Shown one piece after another: positions 29,618 to 33,701 of a DNA stretch of 37,345 nt. The position numbers and the translations under genes were made by a program. Each line of letters opens with the position of its first letter. The stretch's first letter is position 1. The stretch lies in the NCBI GenBank assembly GCA_903836465.1, contig CAILRB010000013.1, positions 1 to 37,345 on the forward strand, written 5' to 3'. Below the pieces are notes generated by a model that was not told the origin of the DNA, did not search any database, and was given only the letters and a program-made list of their open reading frames with translations. Source of the DNA: an uncultured Chlorobiaceae bacterium (GTDB taxonomy: Bacteria; Bacteroidota; Chlorobiia; Chlorobiales; Chlorobiaceae).

Positions 29618-29671
29618 AGCCAACTCGAGAGTGTAATATATTGCCCGGACAAGGGTTGGCTATAACCGGGC
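29618..29671 (+). promoter_or_regulatory. Possible H-type pseudoknot in the leader of the peptide gene
   Basis: Two fully Watson-Crick stems interlock: AGCCAAC (29618-29624) with GTTGGCT (29655-29661), and GCCCGG (29643-29648) with CCGGGC (29666-29671). The order A-B-A'-B' is that of a pseudoknot; alternatively the two are rival hairpins. It ends 28 bases before the peptide start codon. It does not match a riboswitch class I know. The rest of 29448-29617 is AT-rich and holds no gene. Confidence 0.45.
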
Positions 29672-29699
29672 TTCTAATCCTAAACCAATGGAGAGCAAT

Positions 29700-29909
29700 A
29701 TGCCGACAACCCCTGCAAAGGTGAGTGCTTCCAGTGCAGCAAATGTTCTGCACCTGCATAATCCAATATGGGATCCTGTCCCGGATTGGATAAAGTTTGA
29801 CGAACAACGTCTTCATGAGTTTGGCCAGCTTCAAATTCAGGCGAAGCTCAAAGAGCTTGAACTTACAAAGTTAAAGCTCGAACAGCTTCAGAAGTTGTCA
29901 TCGAAGTAA
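29700..29909 (+). CDS. Small Cys-free peptide, candidate substrate of the adjacent radical SAM enzyme
   Basis: A 69-residue peptide starting MPTTPAKVSASSAANVLHLH. I choose the ATG at 29700 because GGAG stands 6 bases ahead; the ATG at 29688 has no good site. The centre has Trp24 and Trp30 in NPIWDPVPDWIKF, with Pro22, 26 and 28. The C-terminal half (about 35-66) is an amphipathic Leu/Lys/Glu helix (KLKELELTKLKLEQLQKL). There is no Cys, signal peptide or membrane segment. A strong terminator follows 15 bases after the stop and a radical SAM gene comes next, the layout of an abundant precursor with a maturase gene reached by read-through. It could instead be a small structural protein. I do not recognise a named family. 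Confidence 0.75.
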   Translation: MPTTPAKVSASSAANVLHLHNPIWDPVPDWIKFDEQRLHEFGQLQIQAKLKELELTKLKLEQLQKLSSK

Positions 29910-29924
29910 TTATGCAAGCATGAG

Positions 29925-29967
29925 ATGTGGCGGATGTTCCCCAAAAACATCTGCCATATTTTTTTTC
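29925..29967 (+). terminator. Intrinsic terminator/attenuator between peptide and radical SAM genes
   Basis: ATGTGGCGGATGTT (29925-29938) pairs with AACATCTGCCATAT (29946-29959) over 14 bp with two G-U pairs, closing a 7-base loop, and is followed by a run of T to about 29966. Most transcripts of the peptide gene should stop here, with read-through or a separate promoter serving the radical SAM gene. An apparent upstream start of the radical SAM frame at 29920 lies within this hairpin and is unlikely to be used. Confidence 0.9.
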
Positions 29968-30015
29968 TCTTGCCCCAGTAACTCCATTCACTCTCATCAC
30001 TACCAAGGCTTCTTT

Positions 30016-31605
30016 ATGTCTATGGCAACAGCACAGCATACCAATACCCATGTTTTGCTTATTGGCTATGAAAATCAGGAAAACCTCGGCCTGCGATCAA
30101 TTATTGCCTCTCTGCAGGAAAAAGCGTATACCACACATCTTGTTCCTTTTTTTCCGGGAAAAGACTCTCTGGTTCTCGATGAAATCAAAAAGCATAAACC
30201 TCTGTTGATAGGATTCTCACTAATTTTTCAATTCAGCATAGAAACCTTTTCATCTTTGATGCGTTACTTGCGCGCCAATGGCGTGAGTGCTCACTTTACT
30301 GCAGGCGGGCACTTTCCAAGCCTCCGCCCCTCAGAAACCCTTGAACTCATTCCTGAATTAGACTCTATTGTTCGTTTTGAAGGCGAAGAAACATTGCTTG
30401 AACTGCTTCTTCATCTTGAGGATCGTGATTGTTGGCCTGCGATCAAAGGAATTGCTTACCGTTCGAACAACTCTACCGTCGAAACTCCACATCGTCCCCT
30501 TATTGAGAATCTTGACACACTGCCATTTGTCTACCGTAATGAGTCAGCCCAAACCCTCGGAGGAATACACATGGCCTCCATGCTGGCAAGCCGTGGATGT
30601 TATTTTAACTGTTCATTCTGCAGTATCAGACAATTTTACGGCACAGCTCCCGGAAAACTCCGCCGTTCCAGATCACCTGAAAATGTTGCTGAAGAGATGC
30701 AATCTCTTTTTAAAAAAAGAGATGTACGTTTTTTCAGTTTTCAGGATGACGATTTTGCATCACGCTCCCCGGCACAGAAAACCTGGATCAGAGCATTTTT
30801 AAAAGCACTTCGTCAAAAAGAACTTAGCTCGATTATCAAGTGGAAAATTTCTTGCAGGGTAGATGATATTGAGCCGGAACTGCTCAAAGAGATGGTCGAA
30901 CATGGATTATTTGCCATTTACCTTGGAGTTGAGTCAGGAAACGAAATCGGACTTAAAACCCTCAATAAACAGGTTAGTGTCCAGAAAAATATCGAAGCTA
31001 TAGCCATTGTTAAAGCTTTCAATTTGGCACTCTCCATTGGGTTTATGCTTTTTGATCCTTCTTCGACGTTTTCATCGATAACTGAAAACATCCAATTCCT
31101 TGCCACCGTTGGACAAGATGGCTACTTCCCAATCAATTTTGGTAAAATGCTTCCCTACGGAGGTACTCCTATAGAGCAGCAACTCCGTGACAGTGGAAGG
31201 CTGACAGGCACGGTCACCCATCCTGACTACGAATTTTTAACTCCAGATCTCAACTGGTATGCGTTTCTGGTACAAAAGCTTTTCGCTCACCGCAACTTTA
31301 GTCCCGAAGGAATTGCAAGTTTACAGAATACCGATTTTGAATATCGACTTACTGAAGCCTTTAACCTTAAGGGGGCAGCAAGCTTGCAGCAGGGAAAACT
31401 TCGAGACCTTATCAGTCAATCAAATACTCTTGCAACCCAAACCCTCAAGAATTTAATCGACGCTATTGGAACCATGGGAGCCGAAGAACTTCTCAGAGAA
31501 GAAAAAACACTGCTTTCAATTGCTGATAAAGAGTGGACTGGAGAGTCGAAAATTCAACATGAAAACAATATTCTTTTTAATGAGCTTTATGCGTCATTTC
31601 AATGA
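30016..31605 (+). CDS. Radical SAM enzyme with B12-binding-like N-terminal domain
   Basis: A 529-residue protein. Residues about 10-145 form a Rossmann-like B12-binding domain (HVLLIGYENQENLGLRSI, then PLLIGFSLIFQFSIETFSSL and HFTAGGHFPSLRP). The usual DxHxxG His-on motif is absent, so cobalamin, if bound, would be base-off or His-off. The radical SAM core has the CxxxCxxC motif at Cys195, Cys199 and Cys202 (SRGCYFNCSFCS), followed by FFSFQDDDFA and YLGVESGNEIGLKTLNKQ as in Elp3-type folds. A C-terminal extension of about 130 residues is helical. Such enzymes methylate or crosslink unreactive carbons in peptides, porphyrins or lipids. The gene follows the small peptide gene after a terminator; the peptide is its natural suspected substrate, by position only. 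Confidence 0.9.
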   Translation: MSMATAQHTNTHVLLIGYENQENLGLRSIIASLQEKAYTTHLVPFFPGKDSLVLDEIKKHKPLLIGFSLIFQFSIETFSSLMRYLRANGVSAHFTAGGHFPSLRPSETLELIPELDSIVRFEGEETLLELLLHLEDRDCWPAIKGIAYRSNNSTVETPHRPLIENLDTLPFVYRNESAQTLGGIHMASMLASRGCYFNCSFCSIRQFYGTAPGKLRRSRSPENVAEEMQSLFKKRDVRFFSFQDDDFASRSPAQKTWIRAFLKALRQKELSSIIKWKISCRVDDIEPELLKEMVEHGLFAIYLGVESGNEIGLKTLNKQVSVQKNIEAIAIVKAFNLALSIGFMLFDPSSTFSSITENIQFLATVGQDGYFPINFGKMLPYGGTPIEQQLRDSGRLTGTVTHPDYEFLTPDLNWYAFLVQKLFAHRNFSPEGIASLQNTDFEYRLTEAFNLKGAASLQQGKLRDLISQSNTLATQTLKNLIDAIGTMGAEELLREEKTLLSIADKEWTGESKIQHENNILFNELYASFQ

Positions 31606-32888: not shown

Positions 32889-33104
32889 GCTGTATCTCAC
32901 CATGATTTTTATTGCTCTTCTCTTATCAGGGCAAACGGAAACCAATTCGAAAACATCAGCATCCCTCTATGATCCAAGTGTGATAGTCGCGTAGTATGTA
33001 GCATTCATGTTTGTAGTTGCGTGATAGTCATTGTATATTTTGAAAAGAGGTAGATGATACGCTATGCCCGGGCAACAGGGCGAAACAGGAGAATCGGAGG
33101 AGTT

Positions 33105-33701
33105 ATGCCAAGAAAAATTAACCCTGACGCAATCGCCTTATTAGACAGACTACTGGTCGGCAATGCACTTGCGCAAGACTGTATTGAGAAGAAACGAGCA
33201 AGGCAGTTGTTTCTCGAAGCGGCAAAGGCCTGTATTGGAATCAAGGAAGTGTCAAAGAACCAGGGTGTTGAAGTGGAACTGTTCCAGAAAACGGTAGGTT
33301 TGAGCAAGGGAGATTCGTGGTGTATGGCATTCATGCAAACCTGTATCGCCTATGCTGAGGTGAAGATTGGCATTGTTTCACCAATTTTTGCTGCAGGTGG
33401 CTGTGTCAACGTTTGGCAGAAGACTTCCCCTGACTGTCGGGTCAAAGTTTTACCGCTAGGTGGCGCTATCGCGATATGGCAGCACACTCATGATCCTGTT
33501 CACGGTCATACGGGCATGGTATTGGATTGCGACGGGACGTCTTTTCATGCGATTGAGGGTAATACTTCTGCCGGGAGCGACAACCTGAATAACGCCGTTG
33601 GACAGACGGGTGATGGCGTACGATTTACGCATCGCAGGTATGACTTGTTCAATCCACACAATGGCGACATGCAGTTGCTCGGGTGTCTGAAGCCATTCTG
33701 A
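33105..33701 (+). CDS. CHAP-domain amidase/peptidase, no signal peptide
   Basis: A 198-residue protein starting MPRKINPDAIALLDRLL; the ATG at 33105 has GGAGGA ahead, whereas the longer frame from 33054 does not. The domain is of the CHAP type, with Cys in DSWCMAFM, His in VHGHTGMVLD and a later acidic/Asn position in HAIEGNTSAGSDN. CHAP enzymes cut amide bonds in peptidoglycan or in glutathionylspermidine-like compounds. It lacks a secretion signal, so it resembles phage endolysins or effector-like hydrolases more than a housekeeping wall enzyme. No holin or other phage gene lies nearby. The 216 bases upstream show no gene. Confidence 0.82.
   Translation: MPRKINPDAIALLDRLLVGNALAQDCIEKKRARQLFLEAAKACIGIKEVSKNQGVEVELFQKTVGLSKGDSWCMAFMQTCIAYAEVKIGIVSPIFAAGGCVNVWQKTSPDCRVKVLPLGGAIAIWQHTHDPVHGHTGMVLDCDGTSFHAIEGNTSAGSDNLNNAVGQTGDGVRFTHRRYDLFNPHNGDMQLLGCLKPF

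Follow-up and report, generated by a model that had tools for sequence, protein, structure and literature searches.

A short peptide gene lies directly upstream of a gene for a B12-binding radical SAM enzyme in the window, as we call the whole 37,345-nucleotide stretch of Chlorobiaceae DNA that we analysed, and this arrangement raises the question of whether the peptide is what the enzyme acts on. We consider it fairly probable that the two genes form a minimal two-gene RiPP-like system, in which the adjacent B12-dependent radical SAM enzyme has the peptide as its dedicated substrate. The features of the locus are collected in Table 1.

Table 1. Features of the peptide-enzyme locus, in window coordinates.
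Feature	Position	Strand	Basis
Peptide gene's ribosome-binding site, GGAGAG	29690..29695	+	Sequence; GGAG before the start in 4 relatives
Peptide gene, 69 aa, no Cys	29700..29909 (including stop codon)	+	ORF; 4 homologues; purifying selection
WDPVPDW codons, residues 24-30, proposed modification site	29769..29789	+	W24, D25, P26, P28 and W30 invariant in 5 homologues; putative role
Residues 35-68, predicted helix and putative recognition segment	29802..29903	+	AlphaFold2; 18 more invariant residues starting at D34; putative role
Hairpin between the peptide and enzyme genes, terminator-like in the window genome	29922..29962	+	Folding; stem-loop at the same place in 5 of 5 loci
B12-binding radical SAM enzyme, 529 aa	30016..31605	+	ORF; Pfam domains; homologues
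Cobalamin-binding domain, residues 22-130	30079..30405	+	PF02310; fold match to the MetH cobalamin domain
CxxxCxxC for the 4Fe-4S cluster, residues 195-202	30598..30621	+	Sequence; homologue alignment
C-terminal, mostly helical region, residues ~400-529, possible peptide-binding part	31213..31602	+	Low-confidence model; putative role

We searched for the peptide and the enzyme independently and found both in the same five of the 86 genomes of the family. Profile searches again returned an identical set of five for both genes among the 98 genomes of the class, all from a single GTDB genus. Each of these genomes has one copy of either gene, in the same order, on the same strand and adjacent, with the enzyme core beginning 139-168 bases past the peptide stop codon. 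The chance that two random five-genome sets coincide is 1.5e-8 if the genomes are taken as independent, a figure that makes the case look stronger than it is, there really being about three independent lineages. Scanning 84,980 species genomes by pattern, an approach that reaches close relatives of the peptide only, recovered it solely in four of the five carrier genomes, and at E 1e-40 the enzyme was absent from the other 389 genomes sampled across the phylum. The preliminary description had named peptide homologues with no radical SAM gene beside them as grounds for giving up a substrate role; none was found, the pairing being perfect and adjacent in five of 98 genomes. The peptide-enzyme pairing is well supported, and the locus shows the consistent linkage of a short precursor gene to a modifying-enzyme gene that serves as a RiPP criterion.

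The three lineages carry the pair in three unrelated genomic settings. In the window and in genome G069 it lies between comEC and ald (alanine dehydrogenase), in G049 and G048 near nif and molybdate genes, before metB/moaA, and in G063 it has a Fic-domain gene on one side and the toxin-antitoxin pair AbiEi/AbiEii on the other (L012, 5066-9964), surroundings typical of mobile or variable regions. In the close relatives G078, G062 and G084, comEC adjoins ald with no pair, leaving an empty site. These three settings, together with the empty comEC-ald sites, indicate that the pair comes and goes as a block. No third gene is common to all five loci. The linked protease or exporter that is usual, though not obligatory, in RiPP systems was not among the genes shared by the five loci, in agreement with the earlier remark that the window has no obvious transporter or protease gene. 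Carriage by phages or plasmids was considered and rejected: viral contigs held relatives of neither peptide nor enzyme, plasmids held no peptide relatives, and the closest plasmid enzymes (about 30-32% identical) are domain-level relatives only.

Other genes around these loci also differ. Only G069 has, after the enzyme gene and before that for alanine dehydrogenase, a class I SAM methyltransferase gene (210 aa; L011, 4057-4686, minus strand), which the window lacks, and G059, a genome without the pair, has in the same place a fragment resembling the first 45 residues of the methyltransferase (L072, 7792-7926). Downstream of alanine dehydrogenase the window holds an ORF of 215 aa (33054-33701), of which G069 has only an 18-residue remnant, so the alanine dehydrogenase side of the locus is variable too.

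The peptide itself is best read from position 29700, since GGAGAG lies about 5 bases upstream and GGAG precedes the matching ATG in all four relatives. The open reading frame bore out the description of a 69-residue, Cys-free peptide with two Trp and three Pro in its centre (Trp24, Trp30; Pro22, Pro26, Pro28). It had no family match in Pfam, NCBIfam, PHROGs or PADLOC, and matches in the PDB were at chance level only. Alignment of the five homologues showed 24 of 69 positions to be invariant: W24, D25, P26, P28, W30, D34, L38, F41, G42, L44, Q45 and I46, followed by K49, L50, K51, E52, L53, E54, K57, K59, L60, E61, Q62 and L63. The nearly fixed parts are thus WDPxPxW and the helix FGxLQIxxKLKELExxKxKLEQL, while the N-terminal 22 residues are variable and poorly conserved. 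The peptide is under purifying selection, with a dN/dS of about 0.2 in the two closest homologue pairs. In the AlphaFold2 model the N terminus is disordered and WDPxPxW irregular, and residues 35-68 form a helix predicted with confidence (pLDDT mostly above 90). The invariance of Trp24, Trp30, Pro26 and Pro28 fits these residues being the modified region.

For the enzyme, ATG 30016 is the best start because the relatives align from there; a longer ORF opens at 29920, with an extension that is not conserved in relatives. Pfam placed a B12-binding domain (PF02310, 6.9e-15) at residues 22-130 and a Radical_SAM domain (PF04055, 4.7e-19) at residues 192-353. Residues C195, C199 and C202 are invariant among homologues, and no DxHxxG was seen when the sequence was read by eye, so that the initial account of a CxxxCxxC radical SAM protein with a B12-like domain lacking DxHxxG was correct. 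With CxxxCxxC in its Radical_SAM domain and a cobalamin-binding domain at its N terminus, the enzyme is, as judged from sequence, a B12-dependent (class B) radical SAM protein. Its structure model superimposed on the MetH cobalamin domain over 136 residues at 3.2 Å (Z 11.3); the model as a whole, with a mean pLDDT of 56, is too weak to speak on a peptide-binding site. No RRE was recognisable in the enzyme by Pfam or NCBIfam.

We next set the enzyme beside named subfamilies, and it fell far under the cut-off of every one tested. The closest models included BchE, ApyD, PhpK and HpnJ, with scores that ranged from about one fifth of the cut-off, or lower, up to one quarter, values that indicate domains in common and no subfamily membership. 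By profile, its PDB relatives were OxsB and MgmA. By fold they were OxsB, TokK, MgmA, AprD4, TsrM and CysS, the cobalamin domain being clear and the model weak overall. The pigment enzyme BchE (anaerobic cyclase) was rejected as an assignment: the enzyme scored 124 of 481 bits (TIGR02026), and the genome's own BchE sits elsewhere (G000:C30, L062; 754 bits). The source genome's other B12-dependent radical SAM paralogues, the full BchE included, are distant from the window enzyme. Several more B12-binding radical SAM genes lie together on one contig of that genome (G000:C50; L063, L064, L065), and no NCBIfam model matched these at E 1e-60. A role as a defence gene was likewise discarded, the PADLOC match of the enzyme being domain-level only (PDC-M51A, 8.8e-16), with the peptide unmatched and no hit in PHROGs.

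The top plasmid relatives of the enzyme come from Burkholderia stagnalis and Sinorhizobium sojae, in loci with multiple radical SAM genes. The B. stagnalis locus (L028, 1-6695) comprises an insulinase-family gene and three B12-dependent radical SAM genes, with a 55-residue Cys-free ORF between them; the position of this ORF is suggestive of peptide work, and the locus is a candidate for a separate RiPP-like cluster. In the S. sojae locus (L029, 2477-11168), an ORF of 80 residues accompanies a radical SAM protein with a PDZ domain and two B12-dependent radical SAM proteins; the latter two are among the nearest relatives that the window enzyme has on plasmids.

Between the two genes, the window has a hairpin of 17 pairs whose stem begins 13 nt past the peptide stop codon and which is followed by a T-rich tail. 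It folds with a z of -4.0, and none of 200 shuffles was as stable. A stem-loop is present 12-27 bases past the peptide stop in all five intergenic regions, with a AATGTGGCAGAT-like stem in the window, G069 and G063 and a different GC-rich stem, lacking a T-run, in G049 and G048. The intergenic region as a whole folds clearly better than shuffles in the window and G048 and less markedly so in the other three, with z values of -1.9 to -2.6. No known RNA element was found there in Rfam. The earlier view of a terminator or attenuator therefore stood as far as the hairpin goes, which occurs in all five loci and beats shuffles in the window; the T-rich tract (U-tract) proved not to be conserved, being present in the window and two relatives only. 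From these sequences, intrinsic termination is plausible in part of the five-locus group only, and the hairpin could be explained equally well by stabilisation of the peptide mRNA. More peptide than enzyme may be made.

How might such a pair work? With the peptide as substrate, the enzyme would bind the C-terminal helix as a recognition (follower) segment and act on the WDPxPxW just upstream of it. The likeliest reaction would be methylation of an unreactive carbon (+14 Da), at the beta carbon of Trp or Asp or at a Pro ring carbon, by way of methylcobalamin and a 5'-deoxyadenosyl radical. Crosslinking between Trp, Pro and Asp residues (-2 Da) would be less likely. The hairpin would favour peptide over enzyme in amount, and the product would probably stay inside the cell or be finished by housekeeping proteases. 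A more specific form of this proposal, which we hold only tentatively and with some doubt, is an undescribed two-gene RiPP class whose WDPxPxW is modified through a helical follower, by C-methylation or by a Trp/Pro/Asp crosslink, to give an intracellular product such as a cofactor or small-molecule binder.

The substrate reading is the most economical because the peptide is the constant partner of an enzyme of a peptide-modifying type, and because Trp, Asp and Pro are frozen in a flexible stretch beside a frozen helix. By analogy, the profile and fold matches to OxsB, MgmA, TsrM and TokK would also count for it, two of these enzymes C-methylating a protein or an amino acid. Counting against it, both proposed parts of the peptide hardly change and variation is confined to the N terminus, a pattern that a protein subunit would also be expected to show; the pair has no accompanying protease or exporter, and the enzyme has no recognisable RRE. 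Most RiPPs combine a conserved recognition part with a variable product region. The frozen core here is unlike the diversifying antibiotic RiPPs and more like the frozen precursors of cofactors, of which PQQ is an example. The initial interpretation of the peptide as substrate thus gained from the pairing and from the invariant Trp and Pro, but its amphipathic Leu/Lys/Glu tail was not upheld: the hydrophobic moment at helix angles did not exceed that of shuffled tails in any of four homologues, and no hydrophobic face rose above chance.

The main rival is that the peptide is never modified and is instead a small partner, whether a subunit, a stabiliser or a carrier presenting another molecule, with a pigment, lipid, cofactor or other protein as the enzyme's substrate. 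A helical partner that aids the enzyme on another substrate would be expected to leave the same genetics. The long conserved helix with its invariant motif, in a functional region constrained throughout and unlike the variable cores of antibiotic RiPPs, speaks for such a role, as do the missing protease and exporter genes and the action of other B12-dependent radical SAM enzymes of the source genome on non-peptides (BchE). We nevertheless regard it as unlikely, because the WDPxPxW is not predicted by AlphaFold2 to be part of the fold, because Trp, Asp and Pro of short peptides are known targets of B12-dependent radical SAM enzymes, and because the hairpin suggests an excess of peptide over enzyme and not a 1:1 ratio.

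If the peptide is the substrate, the enzyme could crosslink it, forming a C-C or ether bond that joins Trp24 to Trp30, or a Trp to the intervening Asp or Pro. Two invariant Trp flank the DPxP, and PbsB, also a B12-dependent radical SAM enzyme, joins aromatic side chains in its precursor (PMC12257519). Such a bond seems improbable to us all the same: known radical SAM crosslinks in peptides mostly span three residues (PMC12257519) and the two Trp are six apart, PbsB requires hydroxylated rings, and the better-known B12-dependent radical SAM enzymes of RiPPs methylate. Another reading, already disfavoured and given hardly any credence here, is that the short gene acts as a regulatory leader or sits beside the enzyme gene by chance, the two having no biochemical connection. 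Like a leader peptide, the short gene precedes a hairpin; it is the amino-acid sequence and not the RNA that is conserved, with a dN/dS of about 0.2 and 24 invariant residues, the hairpin sequence has been replaced between lineages, and the pairing is perfect across three genomic settings.

In the literature that we searched, no paper linked green sulfur bacteria to radical SAM RiPPs or matched the pair; a hit combining Chlorobium, RiPP and radical SAM concerned an Antarctic cyanobacterium. B12-dependent radical SAM enzymes with precursors are already known as a kind, and a two-gene version lacking an exporter, with WDPxPxW and a conserved C-terminal helix, appears to be undescribed in that literature. 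If the peptide is the substrate, this would rank with the smallest radical-RiPP systems possible, having a single substrate and a single enzyme, and would occur in green sulfur bacteria. The fixed WDPxPxW beside a recognition helix would offer a compact test bed for how B12-dependent radical SAM enzymes choose carbons in peptides, and, with no exporter gene in the pair, one may ask what role a modified peptide kept inside the cell would play in a phototroph.

Among known systems, OxsB (PDB 5ul2) was the top match of the enzyme both by PDB profile (1.1e-18) and in Foldseek, but it carries out a nucleotide ring contraction and has no peptide partner of this kind. MgmA (PDB 9ccb), the methyl-coenzyme M reductase Gln C-methyltransferase, is a protein C-methylase matched by profile (2.7e-12, one of two in the PDB) and by fold; its target is a large enzyme, and the window enzyme reached 81 of 360 bits (TIGR04014). 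The RiPP maturation radical SAM C-methyltransferase TIGR03975 (rSAM_ocin_1) has an identical domain order, yet the score was 65 of 282 bits, below the cut-off. ApyD of the aminopyruvatide (apy) cluster gave the best-scoring model of a B12-dependent radical SAM enzyme from RiPPs (NF050148, E 5.9e-33 over shared domains), although at 114 of 750 bits the enzyme stayed below this cut-off as well; ApyD contains an RRE, no MNIO or P450 gene lies beside the window enzyme, and the precursors differ. ApyD makes beta-methyl-Tyr in its precursor, at a Tyr beside Asp (PMC10635010). PbsB of biphenomycin-like clusters likewise acts on aromatic residues of a precursor, between which a crosslink has been shown (PMC12257519), but it uses hydroxylated Phe from partner enzymes that are absent at the window. 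C-methylation is the commonest outcome for B12-dependent radical SAM enzymes on peptides, as with ApyD (PMC10635010) and with PoyB/C and the bottromycin enzymes (PMC11285071). Bottromycin (BotRMT1-3 / BmbB, F, J) differs in that the window pair has a single enzyme, with neither a protease nor an exporter nor any further tailoring gene recognised, and in that the bottromycin-type core stands at the very N terminus, whereas the window motif occupies residues 24-30, behind a variable N terminus and 23 residues in from the first. In both, a B12-dependent radical SAM enzyme would act on a precursor at a site N-terminal to the follower, with targets that include Pro and aromatic residues; in bottromycin Phe, Val and Pro are C-methylated and the follower is C-terminal (PMC11285071), so that its precursor illustrates how a C-terminal follower can serve as the recognition part.
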